A DNA stretch of 64,000 bases from Diplosphaera chodatii. Lineage: Eukaryota > Chlorophyta > Trebouxiophyceae > Prasiolales > Stichococcaceae. The stretch lies in the NCBI GenBank assembly GCA_032358165.1, contig JAALGY010000014.1, positions 124,001 through 188,000 on the forward strand, given 5' to 3'. The notes beneath the pieces were generated by a model that saw nothing but the letters and a program-made list of their open reading frames with translations, was not told the DNA's origin and made no database searches. A program made the translations under genes and the position numbers. Of the stretch, positions 1,864-64,000 are shown one piece after another (positions within the stretch are counted from its first letter, which is position 1; every line of letters begins with the position of its first letter).

Positions 1864-2285
1864 TGCAGCTTCTTGACTGCCAACACCCAACAGTGCCCCT
1901 GCTTGGTGATAAGGTTGCAGTGCCCCTCCCCGTTCACTGCAGTGGGTTCGTAGAGCTCGCACAGCTGTTCTGAAGTGAGCTACACAATTGCTTGCGTCAG
2001 CGATTCTGCTTTCCTTGTGAGGAGTGTACCATACTATAGCTCACCAACAGTATCTGATTCAGCAGCAGACACAGCAACTTGGCTGTAAAGCCCCAGCCCT
2101 GTCCTGCCGCAGATGCCGCGGCAAGCTCCACAACAAATGCAACAACCTACATGGGACTCACGCGCAGGCAGCAGAGGGAGCTGATTGGCATTCCATTCTG
2201 ACATGGCTAATGCTAGTTTGCCGCAAAGCTAAGACCAGTTCGCCGCAAAGCTCCGACCATTTTTCAGGAAGTAACATCCTTCCCG
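1864..2285. other. Convergent intergenic/3' UTR region
   Basis: Space between the stop codons of the ORP gene (+) and the EF-hand gene (-). It should hold both 3' ends. It contains a 22-bp tandem duplication at 2215-2258 and a TGTAA at about 2084. No gene is seen. Confidence 0.6.
2215..2258. repeat. Imperfect 22-bp tandem duplication
   Basis: Two adjacent 22-nt units share the core CCGCAAAGCT and both end in GACC. They differ at about three positions. The repeat lies in the shared 3' region of two convergent genes. It has no evident function. Confidence 0.7.
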
Positions 2286-3221
2286 TCATGGGCTGATGCG
2301 AAAGTTGGAGACAAAATCCGGCGCATGCTGTAGTATGCTCTGGAAGTCCTGGAAGGTGAGGCCGTCAGCATCTGGATCCGCTTCCGATGCAATTCTGGCA
2401 AGCACCTGCGAGCAAGTGCAGAGTACCAGAACTCACCTGATCATGAGCAAGTGCATGATGCATAGACAGGTAGACGAAGCTCCGACCGACCACATACCTG
2501 GTTGACCTGGGCAGTACTCAGCACATCTGCTTCGTCCTCTGCCACATCCACTGCAACGCTAGCATCCACCGCAGGCGCTGCCACTGCCGATGGCTCACTT
2601 AGCAGCAGCTTGAGACCTTTATGTATGTCTGTCGTGCCCAGTAGATCATCACCTGTGACGAACCTCAACATACTGCTCAATGCACGTGTGGCAAGACTGA
2701 CACATACAGCCTGATGCTCAGCGTCTCTTCGACGAACACAGCGTTTGCGACTGGACAGCCTGATGTATTTGCGCACCGTCAAAGTCCCAGATGGCAAAGA
2801 GAAAGATGACCTTCACATCAAAGTTTGCTTGCGGGCTGAACACGGCAAAGAGCTCGAGGAAATACTTGAAGGTCAGCCTGCCGGTGCCGTCATCACTGAA
2901 CACCTCAGCGATACGGCCGGCGAAAGGGTTGTAAAGCAGCTCGTCAATGTTTCTAAGATCCTGCATTATGGAGCAGCACGCACTTTGACGCTGTGCTTGA
3001 GCAGTATCTCGGGGTTGCTGATAGCGGGGTGCACCGTCAGCAGTGAGCGATCTGGTTAGCGGTGCCGCGATGCTCCGCACCGCTCCTGAAATCGAGCCTG
3101 AACCGTCTGTATCCAGTGCACGGAAGCGCGTCCACAGCCGACCAAGCTCTCTGCTGGTGAAAGGTGTCTCGGCCTGCAACTCCTTCAGCAGCGCTTTCGG
3201 CAACTTGGCTGGCGCTTGCAT
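2286..3221 (-). CDS. EF-hand protein of the CIB/calcineurin-B type
   Basis: The start is the ATG at 3221 and the stop the TGA at 2286-2288. At least four exons can be joined. The N-terminal part contains a canonical EF-hand loop beginning DTDGSGSIS. The next exon (about 2795-2967) carries NPFAGRIAEVFSDDGTGRLT and then FAIWDFDG, matching the CIB/CnB core. A further exon (about 2504-2655) holds DDLLGTTDIHKGLKLLLSE followed by an acidic insert. The last exon has DPDADGLTFQDF and ends APDFVSNFRISP, which closely resembles the CIB tail. The family comprises small calcium sensors that dock on membrane or kinase partners. CIBs usually have a degenerate first EF-hand, whereas this one looks calcium-competent, so calcineurin B-like is the alternative. 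The partner cannot be inferred from the neighbours. Confidence 0.75.
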
Positions 3222-3493
3222 GCCTACATATATGTGGTAATGCTGCGTGCGATCTGTGAACTTGGAACGCCCCTTAGTTCGCCGCGTGTTGCGCAACAGC
3301 GGGGAGGTGCGCACATGGTGTTCCCGGATTCTCGGATGGGTACATCGAAAGGCAGCCTGCGGCAAGCCCCCGATCAAGCACAGTGAGTGACATTTTGCCA
3401 TCAGTGCGCTATTTGACCCACACCATATCGAAGTGTTATTGGTTGTGACTGAGCAATTCTGCTGTTCCTGCCTGGTGACACGGAGCAACAACG

Positions 3494-5230
3494 TCATTCC
3501 TGTTGGGCTGCTTGCTGCTTGGCCTCTGTGATGCCCACCCAGTCCCTCAGCCAGTTTGCCGGGATTTGCTCCCCTTTCTCCAGCATCTGATTGGCCAACA
3601 GTGCCCGGATGTACGAGTCTGGCACTGGCGGCCGCCGTGGCCGTTGTTGCTGCTGCTGTTGCGCTGGGTGCTGCTGCTGCTGCTGCTGTTGCTGCTGCTT
3701 GGGCTGCTTTGGCTTGGCTGGATCCCGCTGCCCAGCGTCTTGCTGCGTGTCCTTCTGTGGCTGCTGCTCTGCTGCTGTGTCCTTGCCCGCCTTTGGCGGC
3801 GGAGGAGCCTGTTTCTGCGAAGAACTCTGGGCTGGCTGCGTGCTGCCTTCGATGGCCGCTAGGACATCGCCCTGAGCCAGCAGAGACTAACCTGTTCAAA
3901 ATGTTCAGACGTCCAGCAATCTGCCAAGGTAGTGTACAAACCCAGGTATGCATGTCTGCCAGGTGATATCCCCCACGCCCTTCGTCAGGATCCTGTGTGT
4001 GCACCTTCGTGATGATGCCCCTGGGGCCGGTAGGCCGCACATCGTCGGCTGACAGGCCGGCTTTCTGCAGCAGCATGCGCGCAGCAGGGCCCATCACACC
4101 GCTCGCCTTTTGGCCCCCTGCTGGCTGGTCGTGCTGCTGCTGGCTGTCACCTGCAGCACGCAAGGCGTTGGCATTGGCAGTGCTCTTCCATCAGAACGAT
4201 GCGCGACGCCCACCCTGCAGCACCACTGCCTCCTGCCCAGCCCATCATCCCGAGTCAGACCACTGCTGACGCACAGTATGGCGCACCAGACCGCACACAC
4301 TGACCTGAGCTGGGCTCCTGGCTGCTCCCGGCTGCTGCCTCTTCTGACTGCTGTGCTGGTGCGCTGCTGCTGTCTGCCTGGTAGTCCTTGAAAGCGGCAA
4401 CATTATCCTCATCTTCCACCAGGATCAAGACAGGGGTACCGACGGGAATGTCCTGCAATGGATGCAAAAACGACACCGATGAGTGACATTGCATGCCACG
4501 CCTAGCCGGGTACCGAAATCTTTCATGAGTTACATTCGGCTCTGATCAAGCCTCCAGCCCACCTTTGAACCAGACTCCTTCAGCAGCTTAGCAACAAAAC
4601 CATCATCCTGGTTTTCCCATGCCATCGTGGCCTTGTCCGTCTCAACTTCGCACAGCACGTCGCCTGCTGTGACCTCATCGCCCTCTTTGACCTGCCAGCA
4701 GCACATTCACAATCACGGAGGATGGTGCCCGCACTTCAGACGGTACGATGCACCCAGGTGGGTATGCTGTCTACAAGTGCTACACTTGCAGGTCGTCAGG
4801 GCCATTACCTGCCATGATGCAATGTTGCCCTGTTCCATCGTTGGCGACAGGGCAGGCATGGTCAGCTCCTGCACCGTATGAGTGTCAGCGGTCAGATTGG
4901 CATGTGTAGTTCCAGTTGCAAGCTGTCTGCCGCTGGTGTCCGGCGCATATAACATCGAACTCACCATGTGAGGGGGCAGACTGCTCATCAACTTGGGGGA
5001 AGCTGCACATAGCGGCTCGTGCCATGCCTCCCTCGACAACAAGCCACCGCTAGATCTGCAGCCAGATGATGCGCATGTTAGGTTTGAGCGGGAGTGCACT
5101 GTGACACAGCATGACAAAACTCATCGTCTACAGGCGATGCGCTGCAATCAGACCTCTGTGCATATTGCCCGAACGCAACAGTGATGGCACGTAAGGATCC
5201 ACCAGCCGCTGGTCGAAGGAAGCCCAACAT
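3494..5230 (-). CDS. Lipoyl/E3-binding-domain protein of the PDH E2/protein X family, no catalytic core
   Basis: The start is the ATG at 5230 and the stop the TGA at 3494-3496. Order of parts: a basic presequence ([20 protein letters not shown]) typical of mitochondrial import; a lipoyl domain ([19 protein letters not shown], then [11 protein letters not shown], with lipoyl lysine in ETDKATM, then [17 protein letters not shown]); an acidic Ser/Gln linker; an E3-binding domain ([20 protein letters not shown], then GPRGII and [10 protein letters not shown]); a Gln/Pro/Lys-rich stretch; and a C-terminal segment with [11 protein letters not shown]. The acyltransferase domain of E2 (DFG and HRxxDG motifs) is absent, since the stop follows directly. 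This layout matches fungal protein X (Pdx1), which tethers E3 to the E2 core. A lipoylated scaffold of mitochondrial pyruvate dehydrogenase is therefore more likely than an active E2. Confidence 0.82.
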
Positions 5231-5646
5231 CAGGGGTGGATTTGCGATGAGATGTTGCGGCTGTTTACCTCGGATGCGGGACACAGCAATCAGCTCTGCA
5301 TGCTGCGTTGCGTAGGCGATGCCAGATTGATGCACTTGGGGGTTCGGATCAAGGGCGAGCCGGTGAGGATTTGGGCCGTGGGGCACCGACATGGATGCAG
5401 AAAGGCGACAGGACGCAGATGCCGCCCGTGCTGCTCTGCTGCATCAACGCGACCAAGCACTTACAATTTTTACAAGCATCAGTAAACGTTGATGCATGCT
5501 GCTGATGCTTTGCGAGATGGCGCGGCGTGGCGCTGGTCGTAGAGGCACCAGGGTAGCAGTCCTTTCGGACGTGTGCGGTCAGTTTTCGCGGGCAGCAGCC
5601 AGCCAAGCGACCTCGTAGCCGTGCTCAAGCGGCAATTGACGCCTTC
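5231..5646. promoter_or_regulatory. Divergent intergenic region upstream of the E2-like gene
   Basis: 416 bp upstream of the E2-like start (-), with a possible gene reading away on +. It should contain the E2-like promoter. No recognisable box could be picked out. Confidence 0.3.
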
Positions 5647-19600: not shown

Positions 19601-21665
19601 ACACCGGAGGTGCCAAAACTTGAACACGCTTTTGGCAGCGTGAACTAGTAATCGTGAATGTCCCAGCAGTGCACCTGCGCCGGCTTCTGCGGTCCAGCAG
19701 TCCATGTGTTGCCCAGTGACCCAGCACCCGGTGTGGAGTCGGCAAAGCTCGGCGCCTGCCGCGGCGGCGGCTGCACTGGGACTCCACCAAGGCCCTGCAC
19801 CGTCGGCTCCTGGTGCTCAATAACCTCAGCATAGCATCATATGCACATCTGTGCTACATGTCTTCGGATGAGATGTTGACCTTGTTCGAAACCACAGCTT
19901 GCAAGCAATGCTCGACGCAATGGTTGGCTTCTCACCTGCGGCCGGGGCCCCGGCGCAACCGTGGCGTGCTGCGGCACATGCTGCTGCACAGGCTCCTGCT
20001 GCGCATGGTGCTGCAGCCCATTCACGCTTTGCGCCATGGTTGACGCTTGCGGCGCGTGTGAGATCGGCACATCCGACAGGTTGGGTGCTGAGGCCAACAT
20101 GTGTGCCTGTGCTGCCACAGCAGCTCCCTGCAATGCACATTGTCATAGTGTGAGCTCCACGCAGCATCAACGGGGTACCATTACGTGCAGGAGCAGATGG
20201 CAGCTGGAGGTCCCCCATGGAAAGTACTGACAGGTGTCTCTGGGGACAGTGAGGTGCCCACCTTTTCAATCACAGGGTCTGAGGTGCCCAACTGTGGCTG
20301 GCTGGCTGGTGGCTGCTGAGACTGGGGCTGAGGTGCAACCGGGGGCAGGGATGTAGCCGGCTGCTGCTGGCTTGCTGGCTGCTGCGGCGTGTGCTGCGGC
20401 GTCTGCTGCATCTGCTGCGGCGCCTGCTGCTGCTGCTGCTGCTGCGACGGCGACAGAGTCGGGGCACCCGGTGCAAGTTGCGGCTGCTGCTGCTGTTTGA
20501 ACAACCGCTGTGCCATGCTCATATTGGCATCATCGTTGGGTTTGATTGCTACCGGCGGCATTGCCTGCTGCATCGGCTGTGTTGCCTCTGCAGCTGCGGC
20601 TCCAGTTGACGCAGCAACTCCTGGTGCCCTCGAGAATCTGAGGGCGCCATCGGTAGCATCAGCCGACAATATTGCGATGCAGCGCACACCATGACAAAAG
20701 GGCACACGTGCTGGTGCTCGTGGCAACTTGAACAGAGCGGGCTTGTAGCTCGCGCATAGCACACAGCAGGCCTCCAACTCACGTAGGCGGTGGGGGTTCG
20801 GCAGCCTGCGCCCCAGCGGGTACCTCCTGCGCTGCGGCCTGTGCAGAAGCTACCTCGGCAGCCGGTGCATCCTCCCCTGCCTCCACGCCAGACGTCGGAG
20901 CCCCACGCAGACCGCCTCCTCCTCTCCCTGCACTCGATGCCACCCGGGTCACATCTGCACGTGCATGCTGAAGCTAGCGTATGCAGCGTTTTCGAGTGGC
21001 TTTTTCAGAGCGCTGTGGCAGAGCCTGAAGGCTGTGGCAGGGTTGCACTCTGGCCGGCAGGCACCTCTGCCACCTCGTGAGCCGCCGCGGCTGCCTCGTT
21101 CCCGGGGCGGCCCCCCGCCGCCGGGCGGCTGCCGCCTCACCTCCAGCACCTTGGGCTGCGCTGGCGTGGTCTCCTTCTGCAGCGACTGCCTCCGCTCCTC
21201 CTCCTTCTGCAGGGTGGCTCGCCAGACAGCCGTCAGTACTGAAAGGTGCCAAAGGCGGGGTGCTGTGCATCTGCGCAGAGCAAGCTCATGTGTTCCGCTC
21301 AGCTGGACTCACCTGCTTTTTCTTCTGCCGTTTGTTGACGACCGAGGAGAAGACGCCACCTGCATGGTGTGCAACAGCACGTCTCGGCACATTCGGAAGA
21401 CAGTGTGATCTCGTCTCAGACATCAGGTGTACAGCTGCGCTTGTGGGTGCTGCGTAGGCGTTATCACGTGTGCTGGACGTGCGTTAAGAGATGGGACTTG
21501 CATATATGAGATGATATGGGCAGCGGGCCCGGCCTCACCATCAATCAGCATGTTCGTGGCCTTATTGACATCATAGTCACACTCCTCCAGTGTGTGTTTG
21601 ACATCCTCCTCGGACGCCCCTGTTGCCTCCTTGACTAGCTCCACCACGGACTTGTTGGTAGGCAT
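16696..21665 (-). CDS. GBF-interacting protein 1-like (N-terminal DUF1296/UBA-like; Q/G/Y-rich)
   Basis: The start is the ATG at 21665 and the stop the TGA at 16696-16698. The first exon has the short helical domain of the plant GIP1 family (SVVELVKEATGASEEDVKHT, then LEECDYDVNKATNMLID). This compares with the plant 'mLkEcnmDpneAv..LL' pattern. The next exon has VVNKRQKKKQEEERRQSLQK and an Arg/Gly-rich stretch, equivalent to the FHEVKSKREKKKE segment of plant members. The remaining exons are low-complexity: Gln tracts near 20430 and 17275, and many GYG/YGxQ repeats near 16745-18500. The protein ends PNGDAFKMQ. Plant GIP1 proteins bind G-box factors and act as chaperone-like co-activators. The Tyr/Gly/Gln-rich body suggests a condensate-forming RNA- or transcription-related protein. 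Exon count in the repetitive part is uncertain. Confidence 0.65.
20430..20452. repeat. CTG (polyGln) microsatellite
   Basis: Run of CTG triplets on +, reading as Gln codons in the minus-strand GIP1-like gene. Similar short runs occur at about 17276-17301 and 3650-3690. Confidence 0.7.
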
Positions 21666-36842: not shown

Positions 36843-39800
36843 ATGTGTAAAGCCTGCTCCTCCAGCACAATGCTGCGCAGTTATCGCAGCAGGAGGATAC
36901 AACCGCGGCATACAGCATGTCCGCCATGCGGCTTGCTGCTCCTCGTGCTGCTGCTCGCAGCGGGCATGCCCGGAGCCAGGGCGCAGCTCAGCAAGGGCAT
37001 TGTGGGCGACCACAGCATCATCACGAAGGGCAACAAGTTTCTGCAGCGTAACGCCCACGAGGACACAGCGGCACCAGGACCCAAGTACGGCAGCTGAGCT
37101 GTAGCATGTCGTCTGCCACCTGCTTGCTGCCGGCCTGCATGGCACAGTACTGACTATGAAACACTAGAAGGGCAAGAAGTGGACCATCGTGTAGGAGTGA
37201 TGAGGTGGAACCTGAGGGCATCTGCCCCCAGAATCTGGAGCTGCGCTGGATGAGCGAGGTGGCCAGCAGCGTGTACGCCACGGCGCTGATCACTGACCTG
37301 TACTCGGATGGCCACAAGGACATTGTGGTCCCGTCCTTCGTGCACCACCTCGAGGTGCGGCAGTCCTCAGACAAAGAATTGTTGCAACAGACCCAATTAA
37401 GTGCACTGATGGCGTTTGTATCGACCCAGCGGGCTGATTGGCTGTACAAGGACCCATGCAGGTGCTGGAGGCAAGTGATGGAGCGCAAGCAGCAGGGTGG
37501 CCTGCATTTCACAAGTCCACGGTGCACACCTCGCCGGTCATGTACGACCTGGACTTCGACGGCGTTCAGGACATCCTGCTGGCCACGTATGGCGGCGAGA
37601 TCCTGGCATTCCGTGACAATGTGCGTCTTTTACGCATGTACTTTGTACCACTGATATTGCTGAACATCTGGTAGCCTTGAAAACGAATAGCAGGACCACT
37701 GTAAGTCTTGAAATTTCTTGTGCCCGCTGACGTGTGATCTGCTTCTGAAACCTGCATTGTACACCGCTCAGGGGGAGCAGATGGCGGAGAGGCTTCAGGT
37801 GCCAAAGCTGCGAGTGCGGCGGGACTGGTACAAGGGTCTGGCAGCAGACCACGTGGACCACTTGCACCCAGATGTCGGCAATGGCAGCGATGCTGCGGCG
37901 CTCAAGCCTGCATCCACAGCTCAGGTATATGGGGTGTTGCTATGAGATTGGGGACGAAAGGCTGTGCCCATGCCGATTGCAAACTGCACGTTGCAAAGCA
38001 TCGCTACCAGCATGGTATTGTAGATGCAGGGTCAAGGTGGGCGCCGCTTGCTCATGGTCCCAGAGGACAGCAGCGGTGACAGCGGGCAGAGCTCCCGTCG
38101 GCAGCTGCTGGCAGACAATGAAGCAGAGCACCAGGCCCTGCTGCAGAAGCTGGCAGCAGAGCACAAGGACCGGCTAGCGCAAGCGGAGCAGACAAAGCAG
38201 CAGCAGACGTCAGATCAGCAGCACACAGCGCAGCAGCTGCAGCAACAACAGCAGCAGGAGCAGCAACAGCTGCACAAGGGGTCTGCCTCAGGGCAGCATC
38301 AGGCAGACCAGCAGCAGCAGCAAGGCGAACAGCAGCAGGCACACCAACAGGGAGGCAGCGTCTTTGCAGAGGACGCCGGGCAGGTGAAGCAGGACGCCAG
38401 GCAGGCCCGCACCTCGTTGGGCGCGGAGAATGCAGCCGACAACGAGCTGTCTGAAGAGGTACCCAACCTGTGATTTTGCAACTGGTACCAGTTTGATGCC
38501 AGTTTTCTGTGTGATCATGCGCTGCATTTTCGCTTGTATTCTGTCAACAATCGCAAAATTGACACACCATTTCCTGGACTGCTGAGCACAGGCCACCGAG
38601 ACCTTTGGCGAGCTTTTCGAAGATGAGGAGCATGGCAGGTGACCACTGTAGTAGCCATTGAGACTTGTCACGGCCAGGGACACAGCTCACAGCCAGTGCA
38701 CGACTCTGGCCCTTGTCACTGCCGACCCTGCCAATGCAGCGAGGAGCATGGCGACCATCTGGACGAGGATCTGGACACGCAGAGCGAGGAGGGCCACGCC
38801 GATTATGACCCGGATGATCTGATTCATGAGGAGGATTTGAATGATGTGCACGGGTGCGCAGCGTAAACGTAGCTATATGTTGTGACACAGGTGTTGCATT
38901 CCTTTTGAACGACGCTCCTGTGCGTCCACACGCAATGGCAGCTTCATGTGGCTGCAGTGTCCAATTAGGGACCATGGGAAGCATCCTCTCAAACGATGTA
39001 TTTCTATCACTGACTCTGCGCTGTGTCACATCAGAAATGCCGACTACGAGGAGATTCTGAAGGCGCGGTGGGAGGCAGAGAACCGAGAGGAGGAGGCGGA
39101 GGCGATGCTGGCCAACGGGACGCTCTTTGGAGGCAACGGCACGGTAGGCCGCACCGGGCCAGCCTACCGACCGAAGGCGAGTGCAAGTGGGACTGCTCAT
39201 ACCTGAGATGCAGTGCTCGGCTGCTGTCAACTGAAAGAAACAGTGGTGTTAGTAAGCTCACCGTAGCTGCTGATTTATGCATGCCGGTTGACCTAGCAGC
39301 TGGGGTGCAGCTGCAAAAATAAATGATCTCGAGTGTGGCTGCTGCAGCCCCTGTCGGAGGATGACCTGTGGGAGGACGAGGCGTTCCTGGAGACGCCGCA
39401 CCAGCGGGAGGAGGGCTTCGTCTTCGTGGACCCGCACATCCTGTGCAACCCTGCGATTGGCGACATTGACGCAGACGGCCACGACGAGCTGGTTGTTGCT
39501 GTTTCCTACTTCTTCGATCAGGAGTACTACGGCGACCCGGTGAGACTTCATGCCACTACATCATCCGCAGGTCATCTGCGTCTTCTTGCTGCTGAATAGT
39601 CGCGCCTTTCAAGACCGACAAGGGCATTGATGCTTGACCAGGCCTATTGATGCAAAGACTACTGCCGCAGCAACAAAGGACTGCCAGGCCACCTGGCTCT
39701 GGCCTGCCCTGCGGTTTTGTCCCGTAGTGCGCACGCCACGGATACATGCCTGCCCTGACGGATGCCATCATAACGAATGATGGCTACAGGGTCCGGCCGG

Positions 39801-42653
39801 GCCAGATATCTATCACGTTTTCTCCAACAGGCGCATGCAAAGGAGCTGCCGGAGGGCGTGGACAGGAGCAAGTACATCGCCAGCGGGCTGGTGGCTTTTG
39901 ACCTGCGCACACGCATCGTCAAGTGGTCCACACACATGGACCTGTCCACGGACTCCACAACGTACCGCGCGTACGCATACAGCGCGCCCACGCTCGTGGA
40001 CATCGACCGCGATGGGAAGCTGGAGGTCATCGCCGGCACAAGTGTGGTGAGCTGCTCTGAACCTGTTGGATAGCACAACGCAATATCACGAACTGTGCTG
40101 TTGCTCGTGCAGCATGATTGGCACACCTCACTTGCTGTCACATATGCGCCATTGCAACAGCTGCACAAGTAGCGTATATTTCTGCATGAATCATGCTTGC
40201 TGCGATGCAGGGCTTCCTGTACGTGCTGGACTGCAAGGGGCAAACACGTGAGGGCTGGCCCATCCAGATGGGCGAGATACAGGTGACTGCATCAGGCTGT
40301 CAGCATCCACAGGTTACAGCAGATGTGCGGAGTGTGAGCAGGATATGTTGACCAATGCCTCAGGTGACCCTGCCCCCGTGCAGGCCCAAGTCATTGCTGC
40401 TGACATCAATGGGGACGGAGAGACGGAGATAGTGGCGGCAGACACACGTGGCAATGTGGCGGCCTTCACACCGCGCGGCAAGGAGGTGTGGGAGCGCCAC
40501 CTTGCGTCACTCATCTCTCAGGTGCGTCTAAAGGCTTGAGCATTGTACGCTGGTCTTCTGTGGACATGATAGCGACTCTTGGCAACCTGCAAAGCTGCCT
40601 GTGGTGTTCCAGCCGTGTGCTTGCAGTCCTGAGACCAGCTGCATCAGCAGGCCTGCTTGCAGGCTCGACACTATACCATGCTGCACCACTGCGGCGGCTC
40701 TAGCCGTTGTGACTGCATTGGAAACCTGGAGCTACGTGTCCTTGAGATCTACTGTGGCGAACCTGTAGGGTGCAACAATCGGCGACATCGATGCGGACGG
40801 CGAACTTGAACTTGTCATTGGCACCACGTCTGGCAAGATCTATGCGCTCAGCGGCAAGACCGGCCAAGACACTGGCGCCTTCCCCTTTGAGACACGCGGC
40901 CGCGTGATGGCGCCGGTGCGGACTCCAAGAAGTGTTTCATGTTGCTTATGTCATGGTTTGTGTCCATGCCAGAACCAGCGCTGCCTGAAATCTTTACTTA
41001 CCAGGTTGGCCTGCCAACGGCCAATCCAGTAGCACGGGATGGTGCGCAGGTGCTGATCACACGGCTGACAGGCAGCATGGACAACAGCCTGCACCTGGTG
41101 GTGCTGTCTTTCGACGGTTTCTTGTATCTCATCGATGGCATGACGGGTATGGATCGACCTCAAACACCTTGGCACAAGCCACAGCCTGCATACTTATCAC
41201 ACCAAACCCAGTAATCGAAAACCTGATGTGAGCGCTCGTAGGCTCTGCAAACACGCAGACTATCTAATGCCCGTCTCATCGTCAATCTGTTTCCGCTTCA
41301 GGCTGCGCGGATGTGGTGGACATCGGTGAGACCAGCTACAGCATGGTGCTGGCGGACGACCTGAACCACGATGGCCGAACAGACTTGCTTGTCACCACCA
41401 TGAACGGCAACGTGTACGTGTTTGAGACGCCGGCGAAGCACCACCCGCTGGGCTCCTGGACGTCCCAGGTGCCACTCAGGAGGTCCCAGCTGGTTTTCAA
41501 TTCCTTCAGTGTACGGCAACTGCGCATGCTCCACAGGCAGTCTCACTGCTAGTGGAAATTGCCACCGACAATGGCAGGATGGTGTGATGCAGGTGCATGG
41601 GCGCAACAACAACATGGTGCGCCTCAACACACGTGGGGTGTTTGCCACACCAGCGACACGTGCGCCGCGGGATGTGCGCGGCAAGACGCTGCCGGTGTGT
41701 GCATTCAGCCCATGCCAGAGACGCTGCATAGCGCTGAGGGAATGAAGCTGTCAGCTGTCAGTCGCAGGCGTCGTGTCTTTCCCCAGCATGCGGTGGCCGG
41801 CCATGAGGCTGCTGAAAGCTGTTTGCGACACCTAAAGCACCAGGATGCGGTGGCTGAGATGCCATGGCCCAAGTGCATAATCAACTGCTTTTGTACATGT
41901 GCAGGTGCGCTTTGAGATTGTGGACAGCCGCGTCCCGAAGGCAGATGCCCAGGCGCAAGCCGCTGGCAGGGCTCTGGCAGAGAAGCCGGCACACGGGCCC
42001 TACACAGTGTCCGTCAGCCTCCAGGTGTGTAGTATGATGTGCATGACTGGCAGATGCTGGGATCTGTGCTGGCATGACGCGCCCCATGGTACAGCCTTGC
42101 GGAACCTATCTGCCAGAAGAGGGTAACTTGCAGGCGCTGCAGCATTGCGACTGCTCCATGATCATGGTCATGTGAGCAGCGATGCATTTGCATTACTGCA
42201 CCTGAGCAGGGGGTGGGCCTGGATGCCATGAATGCGGGAGAGCAGCCGGTGATCGGGCTGACGGATACATACACGCAGCCTGGGGTATACACACTGGAGA
42301 TCCCGTGCCCACGCACGCGCTCGACTGCCACAGTCCACATAGAAATGACAGACGAGGTAACACTGGTCCTGTGTCAGCCAGCCAGCAGACATTCGTTTGA
42401 TTGTGGTATGAAAGCGATCTTGTACCCAGTTTGCAATGCTTTGATGCTGCCTCTGCAGGCAAAGACTGTGTTCGTGGACGACTTCTCGCTGTCGTTCCAC
42501 ATGCACTACTACCGGCTGCTGAAGTGGCTGGTGGCAGTGCCGTTCACAGCTGCGGCGCTTGCAGTGCTCAGCATGAAGCTTGGCAGCTTCAACGACCTGC
42601 TGCCGACGCAGATGGGCAGCAGCAGCGTGTATGGCAATGGTGGCCTGCCGTGA
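36843..42653 (+). CDS. DEX1: DEX1-like integrin-alpha/FG-GAP repeat membrane protein
   Basis: The start is the ATG at 36843 (a second in-frame ATG at 36870), followed by a signal peptide core [19 protein letters not shown]. The match to plant DEX1 runs the whole length. Blocks are [144 protein letters not shown], [39 protein letters not shown] and [19 protein letters not shown] (C-terminal transmembrane helix), ending at 42653. DxDxDG loops suggest calcium-binding FG-GAP propeller blades. A Gln/His-rich, highly charged insert occupies 38027-38460. In land plants DEX1 is needed for primexine/pollen wall formation. Its algal role is unknown, probably cell-surface or secretory-pathway wall assembly. 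Confidence 0.9.
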
Positions 42654-55167: not shown

Positions 55168-57413
55168 TCAGTATGCGCTGCCACCTTCGGACTGCGTCTC
55201 TAGGCCCAGGTCCTCGGCGTTGACAATGCTGGGCGCCGCCTTCGGGATTGCGCTGAACTCGCCGTCCACCCAGGCCAGCACGTCGGGACTGGTGGACACC
55301 GGGCACTTCTTCAGCACGCTCGACACATTGGCCGCTGCCAGCGTCGCCTGCGTGCACAAAAGAGGAGGAGGCCATCTTCAGGCGGCCACAGTGAGGCCAC
55401 TGCAAGCTGTGTCTTGGCGCGATAGTCTGATGCAACCTGTGCCCAACTTCAGCGTGAGGGCATGGCAAGTAGCAACCGCACCATGCCGGCGCGTGTCCAG
55501 AAGGAAGCGGAGGCGATGTGGGGCACCACCACCGCATTCTCGCAGTCGAGCAACCCCGGCTTCGTGTCTGGCTCATCCTCAAACACGTCCAGGCCCACCC
55601 TGCAGAAGACCGATGCCCGTCATTCACAGTGCTGCAATTAGTTCAACACCCAACGCTGATATGATCATGTGTTCATACTGTCAGAAATTGGCACACTGGA
55701 AAACACTGCAGGTCTGCACACATGATAGAGCATGCCAGATCGTCGTTGTGTCGGCCACCAAGCTGTGCACCTGAAGTTGGGGTTGGCCTTGAGGTGCTCC
55801 ACAAGTGCGACCTCGTCGATCACGGGCCCCCGTGCAGCGTTGACCAGCACCGCGTCCTCCTTCATCATCCCCAGCCGCTCCTTGTTGATCAGGTGCTTCG
55901 TCTTCTCGTCCAGCGCGCAGTGCAGGCTGACGACCTGCGGTGCACAGGAGTTGCCAGCCGTCAGGCTGACACCATTGCACGCGGTGATGAGAACCAGTGG
56001 TGGTGCGGTATTTATGGCCTTGAGGTGACAGAACTGTTGAATGTATCGGTGCGACAGTGCAGACCATCAGTCTCACGTCTGACTGCTTCAGCACATCTTC
56101 GACGGTGTCGAGGCGGCGGGCGGAGATGGGCTCCTCGCCATGCGACTCCAGCAGCCGGCTGTACTCCTTGCTATACTCCTCCAGCCGTGAGTTGGGCATC
56201 ACGTCATAGTACACGATGTCGCACTTGTGGCCCTGCGCATGTGCAGTGTGCTGGGTGTGACGAGCGCATGAACTGAACAAAGTCCGCGGGCTGCAGAACA
56301 CTGTTCTGCACCTCACCCGCATGCTGCGTTGCCTGCTTTTCAGGCCGCCGATCCCACTGTTATTGAGCTGGTGCTCACCTCCATCATCATGCGTGCATAT
56401 GCTGTCCCGATCCTGCCAGCACCGATGATGCCCACCGTCTTACGCTGCAGCAGGTTGCCTGTTGCGAAGGGAGCATCATCACGAATGCAGAGTGATTGAT
56501 CAGGTTGAGCAGCGTGAGGAGGCTTTCGTCCTGCATCCTGCACTTACGTGACAGCAATGTTGGACTCACCGACAAACAGGTTCGGCAGCCAGCCCTTGTA
56601 CTGCCCAGCCCGCATGAATTTGTCCCCCTCCACGACTCGCCGTGCCGCTGCAAACGTCAGCGCCAAGGCAAGCTCTGCCGTGGTCTCTGTCAGCACACCT
56701 GTGCATATGTAGCGGGATCTGTGAGGATCACCAATCAGGGTGTTCCAGAAAGGGCTGGGGCACTCGGTGCATGCCGCCATGGCACTCGGAGGGTTTGGCA
56801 TGGAGTGTCACCTGGTGTGTTGCCCACAGCGATGCCCCGCTCTGTTGCAGAGGGCACATCAACGTTGTTGTAGCCTACTGCATAGTTGCTGTACGCTCTG
56901 CCGCCCGCCGCCTTCAGTGGCTCGAAGAGGTCGGCATTCCATCCCTGCGGCATGGTGATCATTCAGCCCCTGGATCAGGGTCTGCGTCAGGAGCAACGAT
57001 CGGCACTGCTGCACCTCTTCGCCACCCACCTCTGTGAGCTGGCCAATGACGCCGTCGCACTTGTCGCCGATCAGCTTCTTGATGTCTTCGTTGCTGAGGA
57101 TGGTCTTTTCCGACGTGCACACCTCCACGCGGCAGTCGCTTGCTGTGAGCAGTTTCAGCCACCGCTCGCCCGGCAGATTCTTTGTTACCAGGACCCGCTT
57201 CTGACCACCCTCATTGTGCACCTGATCGACACGAACGACGGACATCAAGTCGCTGCATGCATGCGGCACACAAACACACTTGATCAAGGTACAGCAGCAC
57301 ACCTGAACGGGCAGATCGCCGGCTTCCGAAGCCATAGCACGGATGCCGGCGCACAGGCGAACCGGTGCTGCCTTGCTGCGGAGTCCGAGCAGAGCACTCC
57401 GCAGGAGGGCCAT
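55168..57413 (-). CDS. HPR1: Hydroxypyruvate reductase (glycerate dehydrogenase), mitochondrial type
   Basis: The start is the ATG at 57413 (MALLRSALLGLRSKAAPVRL, a mitochondrial-looking presequence) and the stop the TGA at 55168-55170. Catalytic-domain exons give KRVLVTKNLPGERWLKLLTA, SNEDIKKLIGDKCDGVIGQL, SNYAVGYNNVDVPSATERGI, AVGNTPG and TAELALALTFAAARRVVEGD. The NAD fold is KTVGIIGAGRIGTAYARMMM and CDIVYYDVMPNSRLEEY. Catalytic residues are Arg in VLVNAARGPVIDEVALVEHL, Glu in GLDVFEDEPDTKPGLLDCEN and His in VVVPHIASASFW. It reduces hydroxypyruvate to glycerate with NAD(P)H in photorespiration. The C-terminus reads ETQSEGGSAY, so the SKL-type peroxisomal signal of land-plant HPR1 is missing. 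This fits the mitochondrial photorespiratory route of chlorophytes. Confidence 0.9.
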
Positions 57414-58089
57414 CACCTGGCGACCTGCCCTCTAAGCTGCTTGATCTGCTTTCAACGACTGTGGGGATGATCAGGTGTTTGATGTGTGTTTGATGTAAGG
57501 GCAAAACACCAATGTGGGTACACTATAACGCGACACAAGTTGCAAGCAGGAGGTGTGCACTTGGCGTGAGCCCTGATCTCAACCAATCGTTTCGGGACTC
57601 GATTAGAGGGAAGGTGGATGGCAGAGGTAGGTACGACAATTTACAGCAGAGATAACACGAAACACAAGGACATGACCCATGTCTTGACTGAAACGTTGAT
57701 ACCTGTTGTCAGTGTGTGCCTGACTGTGTGCAGATAGCGGTTCTCAAGCCACGCTGGGTGCGTGGCACACAGGACGTGCAACTGTCAGCTGTGTTTGCGG
57801 TGCAAAGAATGGTGCGGTCCAGCATCTGCAGACCCTGCCTTTGCAACTCTGATTCTGACCGTGCTCCCCCAAATTCAAAGGTCTACTTGGTTGTCAGCTC
57901 CCGGCCGCGGATGGACTTGGCAGTGGACTGCATTGGCATGAAGAACATGAGCGTTCATGTTGCAGTACAGAAATGCTGGCAGCCGTCAGATGCAGGCAGA
58001 AGCTGTGTTACGTCAAACGCCTGCTCACATAGCATATACATGGACGCAGGTGTGCATGGCGTGCAGCTGTACAGCATAGGAGGATGTTC
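57414..58089. other. Intergenic region between HPR and SGAT genes
   Basis: 676 bp separate the HPR start from the SGAT stop; both genes are on the minus strand. A TTACA at about 57645 may end the SGAT transcript, and the rest probably holds the HPR promoter. A + strand open frame at 57716-58159 looks non-coding. Confidence 0.45.
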
Positions 58090-60460
58090 TCAGCTCAGGT
58101 TCACCTGCCAGTACTTGACGGCCTCCCCGACACCTGCGCCGGGTGTGAAGTTGGTGTAGCCGGCATCGATCAGCGCCATCTCTGCACCCGCAATCGCGCC
58201 CAGCATCATCACCTCGTCGCTGTTGCCCAGGTGTCCGATACGGAACACCTTGCCTGCGACCTGTGCGCGTCGCAAACGTGAATGATCAGCCGGGTGTGAG
58301 CTGGCTCCTGGCTGACATGACAGCACAGGTTTCTTAACAGCAAAAGCATTGCGTATGTAACTTCCTTCCAAAAAGTACCTTGGCAAGGCCGACGCCCAGT
58401 GACAGGTTGTATCGCGAGTATGCGCTGACCACGATGTCGTCGGCGTTGACCGAGGATGGCACCTCTACCACCGTCAGGCTGTCGCTCTTCCACCGGTCCT
58501 CTTTGCACAGCAGCTCCAGTCCCCAGCCGGCGACGGCGCGGCGGGTGCCCTCTGCCAGCCTACAGTTCCATATGCCAGACAGGTTTCCACTCACATGCGG
58601 GTAGCCCCAAGGACCGGCCATGCTCATTCTGCAGATGCTGAGCTGCTGCTGCAGTCAATACGCTAATACGGGGCCCTGCAGCACCCCAGTGTGGCTCACC
58701 GTTCGTGGCGTGCCACGACCTGCGCAATGCCCTCGTCTTTTAGGAGGTCCAGTGACTCCCGGAGGCCAAAGAGCAGTGGGATGGATGGGGTGTAGGGCAC
58801 GCCCCCCGACGCATTCTGGCCCAGCTGCCAGTCCCAGTCAAAGTACTTGCGCAGCATCTTGGCGCCCTTGCGTGCAGCCAGCGCCTGCATTGGAAACATG
58901 CACACAGTGATGCGCACGCATCCAGCCTTGGCCAGTTGCAACTTAGTTGCAGAATACTCCTCTTCATGTTGCACAGCAGACAGCAGAGATATGTAGTGTC
59001 TGGGCTATACGCACCTTCTCTGATGCTGCCATGACTCCGAGGCCTGTTGGCAACGAGAGCGCCTTCTGGGAGCCGGTGACAGCGACGTCCACTCGCCACT
59101 TGTCCATCTCGAATGGCAGCGCGCCGATCGACGACACACCATCGACCTGCAGGCATCAGCAAGGGTGAACATCCCCCCACATCCCACCACATTGGGGCTG
59201 TATCTGATCATCAACTCAACTTGGCATGGTCCCACGGTCTCACCAGCAGCAGGGCGTCTGAGCCCGCATCATCCATGGTTTGCCGGATGCGTGGGATGTC
59301 GCTGGTGACGCCCGTGGCAGTCTCGTTGTGTACCACGGCAACTGCCTTGATGTCTGGGTCTGCCTACGTGTGCATCACAAGGAGACAACGTTTCGAAACG
59401 GTCTCGGTGCTTGGTTCATCACCTTCCAGAGAGTAGATGGTCAATGTGCCCACTGTGCACGCATGATGACTGACAAACCCAGAACCGCACCTTGAGAGCC
59501 TGTGCCAGCTTCTCCTCGTTGGCACCCTCGCCCCACCGTGAGTCGATCACCTTCACTTCCAGGCCCAGCTCCTCCATCATGTCCACCTGCACATCCACCA
59601 CATGCATGGTCAATCAAGGGTGCCACATGATGCGCAGCACGCTGGTCCAGAGTCACTGTAGAGCCATGCACGGCCATCATGTCCCTACTGCAACGTGCAC
59701 GTACCCAGAGCTTGGAGAACATGCCGTAGCGGAAGGTGACGACTTTGTCGCCTGGTGACAGCGTGTTCTGCAGCGCTGACTCCCAGCAGCCGGTGCCCGT
59801 GCCAGGGAAGATGAACGGCGTGATCTTCGAGCTCGGCGCCACGTCGGACGTGTTGAAGATGACCTTTACGTCCTCAAGGATCTTGATGAAGAAGTCGGCG
59901 AACCAGGGGTCCCGGTGGTTCAGCGACGGCACCGCCATCGCCCGCTGGACGCGGTCGTGGATGTTGACAGGGCCTGCGATCCCCGGGCAATGTGAGATGT
60001 TTGCACATGCTGCCATGTCTCCTTGGCCTCTGCTGGCGTTGTGCATGGCACGAAGTGCTGCAACAACGGATGGAACCACTGTTGAAAGATCTCACCCGGC
60101 ACGAACAAGTGGTTGCGCCCCGGCGGGACATACTTGAAGTCTGCCGAGCCAGCGTATGTCACCGCTGTCCTGAGCTGCGAGCTGCTGCTGCAGCCCTCCT
60201 GCACGCGAGAGCACAGCGTGTGCTGAATGCTGCTCCAGCTCCTCTAAGCGATCTGTAGCCCCATGCAGTGCGATCGGCATGCGATACCGCATATGACGAT
60301 CGTGCACCATGCAAGACCTGCAAACCTGTTTGCCGACACGGCGCACCTGCACGCTGGTGAGCTGTGCGGCGCTGCATCCGCAGGCTTCGCCGTTGCTCAA
60401 CCCGGCTCTGGCGAACAGGCTCAACAGGGCCCCACGGCGGCCTGCCGCCTGTCGAAGCAT
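58090..60460 (-). CDS. SGAT: Serine:glyoxylate aminotransferase (alanine:glyoxylate aminotransferase family)
   Basis: The start is the ATG at 60460 with an Arg/Ala-rich presequence (MLRQAAGRRGALLSLFARAG). The mature enzyme begins ADFKYVPPGRNHLFVPG. Conserved exons follow: NIHDRVQRAMAVPSLNHRDP, ITPFIFPGTGTGCWESALQN, GDKVVTFRYGMFSKLW, VDMMEELGLEVKVIDSRWGE, AVVHNETATGVTSDIPRIRQ, VDGVSSIGALPFEMDKWRVD, VAVTGSQKALSLPTGLGVMA (PLP-binding Lys in GSQKAL), QNASGGVPYTPSIPLLFGLR and GKVFRIGHLGNSDEVMMLGA. It ends VKYWQVNLS (stop 58090-58092). It transfers the amino group of serine to glyoxylate, giving glycine and the hydroxypyruvate used by the neighbouring reductase. Land-plant enzymes end in SRI (peroxisome); this one does not. 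It is head-to-head with the glycolate dehydrogenase-like gene. Confidence 0.92.
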
Positions 60461-60553
60461 CGCGGGGATGTTGATGCTAAGACGGGGGTGTGCGCCTGCG
60501 CTGCTGTGCTGTATGGACGGGCACGAGTACCGTAGATCACCCAGGCTTCGCGA

Positions 60554-60578
60554 GTGGCCAGAACCTCATCGAGGCCAC
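60554..60578. promoter_or_regulatory. Inverted repeat GTGGCC-n13-GGCCAC
   Basis: Perfect 6-bp arms with a 13-nt spacer in the middle of the SGAT/glycolate dehydrogenase intergenic region. It could be a dimeric factor site; chance occurrence is possible at this GC content. Confidence 0.4.
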
Positions 60579-60638
60579 GTAGTGCTGATCCCTTATCACG
60601 CCCCCTGTGCTTCCTAAACATCCTGAGGCGCAGAGATT

Positions 60639-60664
60639 GGCGTTCCTCAGCGCTCTGGAACGCC
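60639..60664. promoter_or_regulatory. Inverted repeat GGCGTTCC-n10-GGAACGCC
   Basis: Perfect 8-bp arms with a 10-nt spacer (one helical turn between the arms), ending 39 nt before the + strand ATG. A third GCGTTC half-site follows at about 60671. It is the best candidate operator-like element in the window. Confidence 0.45.
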
Positions 60665-60703
60665 CTCAAAGCGTTCTCCAGCAGGTCCGGCACAACTGCA
60701 ACC

Positions 60704-63700
60704 ATGGGCCGTCGTGGACTAGCTCGCCTCGCACGGCGCTCCGCGGTCCTGTTTGGCAGCGGCACTGCCAACGTGGTCGCCGGTGAGCAACAGCCGCTGG
60801 TGCGGCTTGCCCACTCTGGGCTTCTCGCCTCCAGAGGCTCTAGCATCCGCAGCGCAGTCGACAGGAGCACCCCTGCCACGCGCGACGCCCTGTCAGCGCC
60901 GCGGTCGCTGGTGTCAGCCCTTCCAGCACGGCAGGAGGAACTGTCAGATGAGGAGACCATCAGGGTTGTCCCCAGCTCGGGCTCTTCGCCAGAGATCATC
61001 ACAGACCATGTTGGTGCCATCAGCATGCTCTGCGACGACGGCAGCGCAGAGGTGCGGGGCAAACGTGCTCGTTGTGCCCAAGAGATGCACGCGTATCTCG
61101 GCTGCAAAACTTCCTCCGGAACATGCATTGCGCTCGAGGTGGCAGTCATCGTCCCGTTTCAGCTACACATCGTGCAAGGGCCTGGTACTACGCACCACTC
61201 CGTGTCAATACTTGACATGTGCAGTGGGTGCGCGCCACCTTCACAAATATCCCACACGTTTGCTGCAGGTCACCTCCGTGTGGCAGAACAAGGACGGCAA
61301 GCGCATCGAGGACGGCCGCTACGCAGCCTTCAGCGAGGCCATCAGCCCCTTCATCCCCAAGGAGCGGCAGTTCACGGACCCTGTGCGCACCTTTGCGTAC
61401 GGCACGGACGCCAGCTTCTACCGCCTGAACCCCAAGCTGGTGGTCAAGGTGCACAGCGAGCAGGAGGTGGCGCGCATCCTGCCCATCGCGCGGAAGATGC
61501 AGGTGCCCGTCACCTTCCGGGCCGCGGGCACCAGCCTGTCGGGCCAGGCCATCACCGACAGCGTCCTGCTGAAGCTCAGCCACACCGGCAAGAACTTCCG
61601 CAACTACACCATCCACGTGAGTCCACGTTGCCATTCGCACCTTTCTGACTTTGGCATTTGGCCATGTCGTGTAACCTGCACGATTTCGGGCGCTGACAAC
61701 TGTGTGGAGCTGCTGGGCAACGTCCCTCCACCCCCCTGGCCTGTGGAGGGCCTGTGTCCGACATGCATTGCTGCCCACTGCAGGGTGATGGCAGCCAGAT
61801 CACGGTCGAGCCTGGACTAATCGGTGGCGAGATCAACCGCATCCTTGCAGCTCACAAGAACAAGCACAACCACCCTGTTCAGTACAAGATCGGGCCTGAC
61901 CCATCATCCATCGACAGCTGCATGGTGCGACTACCGGAGCAGGCTGTGCTCCAATGGTCTGCTGGACGTGCAGGTGTCCAGCACTTGCTCCGCTGCGATC
62001 TGCTCTGTTTTTGCTTGCCGTCACCAAATTGTTGTCTGTGTGATGCAGGTCGGTGGCATGGTGTCCAACAACTCCTCTGGCATGTGCTGCGGCGTTAGCC
62101 AGAACACGTACCACACGCTCAAGGACATGCGAGTCGTATTTGTCGATGGCACCGTCCTCGACACCGCTGACGCGGACTCGCGCGCTGCATTCCTGGAGGT
62201 AAGCAAGCTTACACAGGCTATACGTTGCATGCTTTGCACGATGCCTATGCTGTCACGCCTCGACGTCCTGGGGTTGCCCATGACAACCTTGTGATTACCA
62301 GCCAGCTGAAGTCGTGTTTCATTCCCTCCTGGCAGTCGCACAAGGAGCTGTGCGATGGCGTGGTCGCCCTGGCCACCGAGGTGCAGTCAGACCAGCTGCT
62401 GACCAACCTCATCCGCCGCAAGTTCGCCATCAAGTGCACCACAGGTGCGCTGCTTCATTTTTGTCTGGGTTCACATGGGGTGCTGACTGCCGCTGCAGAA
62501 GATGTACCAGGTTGTTCGTGCTGATCGGTCGCATCTCATACTGCAACTGTCCTCACCTTGTCAGCATGCATACAGGCTACTCGCTCAATGCACTGGTTGA
62601 CTTCCCAACGAGCGACCCAATCGAGATCATCAAGCGGCTGATGATCGGCAGCGAGGGCACTTTCGGCTTTGTGGCACAGGCAACCTACAACACTGTGCCC
62701 GAGTGGCCCAACAAGGTGTGGAAGGGTGGCTTGCAAGAGCAGAGCCAAGTTTACTGGCAGCTGGGTTACCTGGTCTGCTGGTGTTTTCATTGAGAACCTA
62801 TCCATCGAGGGTATGTCGACTGACTCTGCTTTTTCTTCTGTGCAGTCGTCTGCATTTGTGATGTTCCCAGATGTCCACTCAGCCTGCGCCGCAGCATCCG
62901 TGCTGCGCGACAACACTGCAGTGGACGCTGTGGAGATGTTCGACCGTGCTGCCCTCAGGTACACTGAGATACTGCAGGTTTCTTGCAAGAATCAGCCATC
63001 CGATGGCAGTGCTGGTCGTGCGCATGCGTATGGCAACAATCTGAACCCTTCTGACTTGTGTATGCACATTATTCAGGGAGTGCGAGATTGATGAGGACCT
63101 GAAGCGCCTGGTGCCAGACATGAAGGATGCTGGCCCCACCGCAGCTGCGCTGCTCATCGAGTGCCGTGCCAATGGTCCTGAGGGTCTCAAGGTCGGTCTA
63201 TCCTGAGCTCGGCATCCAAACACTGTGGTGCATCCGCTGTTGTTTACATTACTGTGTTACTTGGGTGGCGATCAGTCTTCCCTGAGACCTGAGACCTGTT
63301 GGAAGGTGCGTTCACAACCTTGGTGTTCTCACATGTAGGCTCGCATCAACGAGGTCAACAGTGCTCTGAACGACAGCGGCCTGCCTTTTGGAGCTCACTC
63401 AGACCAGCAAAAGGGCCTGGACAACTACCCCTTCCGCAAGGACGATGCCGAGTCCAAGGTCTTCTGGGACGTGCGGAAGGGCCTCATCCCAATCGTTGGC
63501 GGCGGTCGCGAGGCTGGTGAGTGTCGACAACGAAGTGTCTTGCGCACAGCTGCGTGTGTCAGCGCAGCATGGGAACCACCTGCTTCGATGTCCTTGTAAG
63601 CAGCAATGACGACCTCTGGGCAGCTGCTCCGATGCATGCGATGACATGTGTGAGTATGCAGTGCAGCACCTTAATGCAATGTTACCCTGCAATGCAGGCA

Positions 63701-64000
63701 CATCCTTCCTGATTGAGGATGTGGCGTGCCCTGTGGACAAGCTGGCAGCCATGACGACGGACCTGGTGGAGATGTTCGAGAAGTATGGGTACAAGGACGC
63801 ATCCTGCTTCGGCCACGCGCTCGAGGGCAACCTGCACCTGGTGTTCTCACAGGTGTGCGCCCGCGCTGAGCCGCAGCGTAACATCTGCTCACTGAACTCA
63901 CTGCATGGCCCTCAAAATGATGTCATGTTGCATCAGTCCCTTTGCTCAAGTGCGTCTGCGATTCGAGCGGCATTGGCGCTGCAGGGTTTCCGCACCCCAG
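60704..64000 (+). CDS. GYD1: Glycolate dehydrogenase-like FAD-linked oxidase (GYD1 / D-lactate dehydrogenase family), 3' partial
   Basis: The start is the ATG at 60704 with a basic presequence (MGRRGLARLARRSAVLFGSG). The FAD (PCMH) domain follows: WQNKDGKRIEDGRYAAFSEA, RTFAYGTDASFYRLNPKLVV, PVTFRAAGTSLSGQAITDSV, GDGSQITVEPGLIGGEINRI, QYKIGPDPSSIDSC and VGGMVSNNSSGMCCGVSQNT. The FAD-oxidase C-terminal domain starts around LNALVDFPTSDPIEIIKRLM and IGSEGTFGFVAQATYNTVPE. It continues through LPFGAHSDQQKGLDNYPFRK, VFWDVRKGLIPIVGGGREAG and CFGHALEGNLHLVFSQ, to GFRTP at the window end. The Fe-S half expected of this family lies beyond 64000. In chlorophytes GYD1 is mitochondrial and oxidises glycolate to glyoxylate. 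D-lactate dehydrogenase is the alternative, but the two photorespiratory neighbours favour glycolate. Confidence 0.82.

Follow-up and report, generated by a model that had tools for sequence, protein, structure and literature searches.

Five contiguous genes of glyoxylate metabolism, probably a photorespiratory cluster, in two subgenomes of a chlorophyte-like alga, and the absence of all introns from two of them in one subgenome

Gene models and family searches identified five contiguous genes of glyoxylate metabolism, HPR, SGAT, GYD, AAT and AGXT, within 19 kb, and the models contain no intervening gene in this run. We consider it quite probable that these genes form a nuclear photorespiratory cluster in a chlorophyte-like alga with two subgenomes and that they encode the block of the C2 cycle leading from glycolate to glycerate, minus the glycine-to-serine step. 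The same five genes are found in a second, homeologous copy on another contig, in which two adjacent members, GYD and AAT, have no introns at all.

The window analysed here is the whole stretch of 64,000 nucleotides, C12:124001-188000, taken from a genome of 85.6 Mb in 55 contigs that include a plastid-like contig with rbcL. Coordinates above 64000 carry the window numbering on along contig C12, the contig position being obtained by adding 124000.

Layout of the cluster and its homeologous copy

The genes and the intergenic stretches within or reaching into the window, and the two genes that follow, are arranged as listed below.

55168..57413, minus strand: HPR, hydroxypyruvate reductase-like 2-hydroxyacid dehydrogenase, 420 aa, 9 exons
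57414..58089, no strand: HPR-SGAT intergenic stretch, 676 bp from the HPR start codon to the modelled SGAT stop codon, 83% identity with C32
58090..60460, minus strand: SGAT, serine-glyoxylate aminotransferase, modelled with 9 exons and 456 aa, 3' end uncertain
60461..60703, no strand: SGAT-GYD intergenic stretch, 243 bp from start codon to start codon, putative bidirectional promoter, 86% identity with C32
60704..64000 and on to 67437 (C12:191437), plus strand: GYD, glycolate-dehydrogenase-like protein with fused FAD and 4Fe-4S halves, 1126 aa, 23 exons in all
67870-71289 (C12:191870-195289), minus strand: AAT, alanine/glutamate:glyoxylate aminotransferase, 528 aa, 13 exons, wholly beyond the window
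71632-74111 (C12:195632-198111), plus strand: AGXT, 12 exons, wholly beyond the window

Four of the five genes form two divergent pairs, SGAT/GYD and AAT/AGXT, whose start codons are 243 bp and 342 bp apart, respectively, and HPR stands in tandem with SGAT. The original prediction had placed three adjacent genes, for HPR, SGAT and a FAD enzyme, in the last part of the window, and had proposed that an Fe-S half of this enzyme and more pathway genes might lie beyond 64000. The three genes were recovered at these places by gene models together with Pfam and PDB matches, the Fe-S half was found beyond 64000 within the GYD gene itself, and AAT and AGXT, both aminotransferases of glyoxylate metabolism, follow.

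The left neighbour of HPR resembles an armadillo-repeat protein, as judged by eye only. On the right-hand side, the neighbour of the cluster gave no Pfam match and the next gene beyond gave a match to HARE-HTH only, below the cut-off. As no pathway gene was recognised on either flank, the run of pathway genes amounts to five. Further genes were located outside the cluster: GDC-P on C46 and C49, SHMT on C51/C1, and a second SHMT pair on C21/C32, of which the C32 member lies about 0.68 Mb from the cluster. SGAT and AGXT belong to one fold family but are distant members of it, so the cluster is not the product of tandem duplication. The run therefore shares two properties with eukaryotic metabolic gene clusters: its genes belong to one pathway and are contiguous, and they did not arise by tandem duplication. 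Elsewhere in the window, positions 36966-42653 hold a gene for a DEX1-like FG-GAP protein (Pfam Beta-sand_DEX1).

Contig C32 is colinear with C12, with 78.5% identity across the 103 kb compared, and carries all five cluster genes, ordered and oriented as on C12. The gene order is thus no accident unique to one place in this assembly, and an assembly artefact was ruled out, as the alignment runs unbroken through the flanks. Contigs C1 and C51 form a further homeologous pair, and we read such pairs as two subgenomes. Across the five C12/C32 gene pairs dS is 0.22-0.30, and the bootstrap ranges overlap; the dN/dS ratios are 0.04-0.11. None of the five genes contains an internal stop on C32, where the end of SGAT differs from that on C12. 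AGXT was modelled with a splice site that is conserved on C32, and with that site no frameshift occurs on C32. These results demonstrate purifying selection on the cluster genes, which exist as two homeologous copies, and this excludes chance as an explanation of the gene calls. The unchecked gene models g29956, g36966 and g44721, with dS of 0.46-1.00, dN of 0.15-0.89 and stops on C32, were taken as faulty and left unused, and two others, g-291 and g-7488, yielded no values because they lay beyond the part of C32 that was compared.

Between C12 and C32, the two divergent intergenic stretches show 86% and 89% identity, more than the convergent stretch (80%) or the tandem stretch (83%), a comparison of four stretches in all. 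The higher identity of the divergent stretches would fit shared promoters and is no proof of them.

Enzyme families and the proposed pathway

The family calls rest on Pfam and PDB sequence searches. Among the NCBIfam families shown, from a library built for bacteria and archaea, no cut-off was passed by any of the five cluster proteins. HPR carries both 2-hydroxyacid dehydrogenase domains (PF02826 and PF00389) and its closest PDB entries are glyoxylate reductases. The GxGxxG motif and the Arg/Glu/His residues, which we take to be the hallmark of D-2-hydroxyacid dehydrogenases, are visible in the PDB alignment and place HPR in this family. Its best score against the curated equivalogs of NCBIfam (bacteria and archaea) was 242 bits, for glyoxylate reductase, below the cut-off of 455 bits.

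SGAT aligned over its full length with a solved SGAT (PDB 6pk1, 425 bits, E=1.9e-126), the next best match reaching 152 bits, and by family it would be a plant-type serine-glyoxylate aminotransferase. The nearest NCBIfam model, that of the aspartate-glyoxylate aminotransferase BhcA (469 bits for a cut-off of 650), counts against this assignment. The last codons of SGAT show no conservation on C32, so that its 3' end at 58090 is to be taken as a model.

AAT matched the solved alanine aminotransferase 3tcm over its full length (458 bits), in a search that cannot separate alanine aminotransferases from the glutamate:glyoxylate aminotransferases that this family presumably includes. No other gene of its family was found, all 14 genome matches obtained with the C32 copy as query lying in the C12 and C32 copies. 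AGXT matched the solved AGXT enzymes 2huf (403 bits) and 1h0c (347 bits) over its full length and the SGAT structure 6pk1 with 102 bits; the clustered gene is thus of the animal type, nearer to AGXT than to SGAT. A second, more distant AGXT pair was observed at C1:1034522-1036753 and C51:968437-970677 (47-70% identity by exon match), which means that the genome has AGXT genes besides the clustered one.

Pfam detected FAD_binding_4, FAD-oxidase_C and 4Fe-4S domains in a single protein, GYD, in which the Fe-S motifs are present. This fusion of a FAD half to an Fe-S half is what we take to be the GYD1 architecture. With NCBIfam, GYD scored 156 bits against GlcD (cut-off 568) and 156 bits against the D-2-hydroxyglutarate dehydrogenase YdiJ (cut-off 1350), both far below the cut-off, and the sequence therefore does not decide its substrate. 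When bacterial and archaeal contigs were searched for relatives of GYD, 10 pattern matches came up, none of which was a relative. We infer that glycolate is the substrate of GYD.

In the pathway that we propose from these family assignments, GYD would convert glycolate to glyoxylate and AGXT would convert glyoxylate to glycine with alanine. AAT would remake alanine from glutamate, or would act directly as a glutamate:glyoxylate aminotransferase, also yielding glycine from glyoxylate. SGAT would convert serine and glyoxylate to hydroxypyruvate and glycine, and HPR would then convert hydroxypyruvate to glycerate. Regulation by low CO2 might be common to the five genes, through the two putative divergent promoters.

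All five proteins probably act in the mitochondrion. Among the first 30 residues of each of the five cluster proteins, 4-5 are basic and 0-1 acidic (5 and 1, respectively, in HPR), a composition shared with mitochondrial presequences. In a simple test of amphipathicity (helix moment), none of the five N-termini exceeded 90% of the shuffled sequences, with HPR at 41% and SGAT at 21%, so that by this measure the presequences are weak. The C-terminus of HPR is SAY, and no SKL-type peroxisomal signal is present there. The mitochondrial reading leans on two reports, that HPR1 of Chlamydomonas is mitochondrial (PMC8264790) and that the glycolate dehydrogenase used by chlorophytes such as Chlamydomonas is located in mitochondria (PMC7020209).

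Two other explanations of the gene run were weighed. The FAD/Fe-S gene could encode a D-lactate or D-2-hydroxyglutarate dehydrogenase, in which case the neighbourhood would be a general module of 2-hydroxy acid and alanine metabolism and not of photorespiration proper. This agrees with the fact that NCBIfam puts GYD equally near GlcD and YdiJ, and other FAD_binding_4 genes could supply the glycolate enzyme, the nine genome matches being on C25, C19, C15 and C47 besides C12 and C32. We nevertheless judge this reading unlikely, because GYD sits between SGAT/HPR on one side and AAT/AGXT on the other, four genes whose common currency is glyoxylate, and because a glycolate dehydrogenase of the mitochondrion has been reported for chlorophytes such as Chlamydomonas (PMC7020209). 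Far less credible still is adjacency of the five genes by chance, through neutral drift of gene order and without selection for clustering. Gene order is indeed kept between two subgenomes whose contigs stay colinear over all of the 103 kb compared, so that the kept order is not special to the cluster genes and little can be concluded about selection for clustering from the second copy by itself. The case against drift comes instead from the contiguity of five genes that belong to one short pathway and have no gene between them in the models, from the distance between SGAT and AGXT within their fold family, which speaks against tandem duplication, and from the photorespiration cluster reported as conserved in green algae (PMC7826186).

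Absence of introns from adjacent gene pairs

On C12, GYD has 22 introns and AAT has 12, whereas on C32 each gene is a single open frame in which the exons are joined at the former intron sites, so that 34 of 34 introns are absent. These homeologs of the window cluster are located as follows.

C32:910001-919000, local 167-1753 and 2178-5561: intronless AAT and GYD

The introns of the three other cluster genes are kept in both copies (8/8 in SGAT, 8/8 in HPR and 11/11 in AGXT). The removal in GYD and AAT is exact at the splice sites, consecutive introns are concerned and the flanks are in place, as expected for mRNA-mediated intron loss; a 3' bias cannot show in these two C32 genes, as no intron is left. 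Retrocopies elsewhere in the genome were ruled out, the intronless genes being at the syntenic place with their flanks aligned. Recent conversion of C32 by cDNA from C12 was ruled out as well, as the dS values of GYD and AAT are not below those of their neighbours taken as a group, and so were similar, mobile introns, the 34 introns being without similarity to each other at E 0.01.

In the rest of the 103 kb, two stretches are cleanly missing from C32 and one from C12; at the other gaps, both contigs have sequence but of unequal length. By a loose test, each of the three clean gaps allows at least one splice-like reading. At window positions 20128-20261, a single clean gap on C32 has splice-like ends (GTGGGC...TTGCAG, minus strand) and is a candidate for the loss of one intron. 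As a scale for these counts, 14 ad hoc gene models over window positions 7000-90000 predict 190 introns, these models being unchecked and that of GYD over-extended.

A second pair of intronless neighbours was found on C51.

C51:79001-87000, local numbering: GrpE, minus strand, 1614-2630, and SHMT, plus strand, 3225-4793; divergent, intronless

These genes lack 24 of the 24 introns of their C1 homeologs, 8 in GrpE and 16 in SHMT. The GrpE frame on C1 stops some codons before the end of the C51 frame.

It is very improbable, in our judgement, that the intron difference arose by gain on C12 and not by loss on C32, even though the comparison of GYD and AAT sets C12 against C32 only. The lack of mutual similarity among the 34 introns at E 0.01 means that no intron-spreading element was seen, and the intron density of GYD on C12 resembles that of its neighbours. 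SHMT offers a parallel, as three of its 16 intron positions (83, 308 and 337) coincide, to within about 3 residues, with exon edges of the C21 paralogue and look old, which favours loss; other exon edges of this paralogue (near 157, 213 and 269) have no match to SHMT intron positions.

Whole-gene intron loss does not seem to be common in this genome, as estimated from four hand-picked, non-random families. Scoring of 87 of 134 candidates for Cpn60/TCP1 gave 113 matches, none of which extended beyond about 150 of the 490 positions, and none was whole among the eight matches to GAPDH-N and the 14 to GDC-P. The fourth family was tubulin, in which one of 24 matches (C37:538814-539302) lies in one long open frame of 507 aa, most of the others being exon-sized; this copy is a possible third whole-gene loss.

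We infer that, on C32, copies made from the spliced transcripts of GYD and AAT replaced the two genes where they stood, and the pattern of GrpE and SHMT on C51 would fit the same process. Replacement in place via reverse-transcribed spliced mRNA is a known explanation for the loss of consecutive introns (PMC2395259). The mRNA-mediated loss described for Cryptococcus in that work is alike in that several consecutive introns of a gene were lost, whereas here every intron is gone, the first and the last included, from two neighbours on opposite strands and at two separate loci. Both pairs consist of genes on opposite strands, and neither pair can therefore be spanned by one transcript. Pairwise loss might have come about by independent events in highly expressed genes, their expression being assumed, or in one event with several transcripts. 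We raise tentatively, as possible but rather less than probable, the idea that whole-gene intron loss goes by region, one event stripping two adjacent, oppositely transcribed genes of one homeolog. An example would be the repair of a double-strand break in which several spliced transcripts, or the cDNAs made from them, serve as templates together. GYD/AAT on C32 and GrpE/SHMT on C51 would then be two records of regional loss, with the intron-bearing homeologs as built-in controls. A limited literature search found no earlier report of whole-gene intron loss in adjacent genes.

Known systems and significance

In plants, the peroxisomal block comprises the reactions from glycolate through glyoxylate to glycine and from serine through hydroxypyruvate to glycerate, and it uses glycolate oxidase in peroxisomes. 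The cluster would share these reactions but differs in its dehydrogenase-type enzyme, in an HPR without an SKL-type C-terminus, in the basic N-termini and in an animal-type AGXT beside AAT. By the Cre06 numbering convention, GYD1 and HPR1 of Chlamydomonas presumably lie on one chromosome. This alga shares the pathway, but its GYD1 (Cre06.g288700) and HPR1 (Cre06.g295450) have non-neighbouring numbers among the loci quoted here from PMC12174325, which also give GCSP as Cre12.g534800.

Of the functional clusters recovered in green algae, five had been reported before, and photorespiration is named as one of them, with reference to Foflonker et al. 2016 on Picochlorum (Foflonker and Blaby-Haas 2020, PMC7826186), and a photorespiration cluster is restated for Picochlorum SENEW3 (PMC12198440). 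The clustering of photorespiration genes is thus not new in itself. The original prediction of a nuclear cluster of linked photorespiratory steps is borne out, and the cluster is wider than proposed, with five genes; the idea that such clustering is unknown finds no support in view of these two papers. The Picochlorum and green-algal cluster is an object of the same kind, in which photorespiration genes are likewise co-localised in the nucleus, though its members and their order may differ. In Chlamydomonas, significant co-expression was reported for 11 neighbourhoods, including four previously described ones, and the statement to this effect does not specify photorespiration among the four (PMC7826186).

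A block of one pathway kept together in a eukaryotic nucleus is a natural system in which to ask what keeps metabolic genes side by side, selection or regulation. With 34 introns in GYD and AAT on one side and none on the other, the matched copies allow a measurement, inside a single cell, of how introns influence the speed of induction and the level of transcript. The mechanism of intron loss could further be tested directly on the two adjacent gene pairs that have no introns left.
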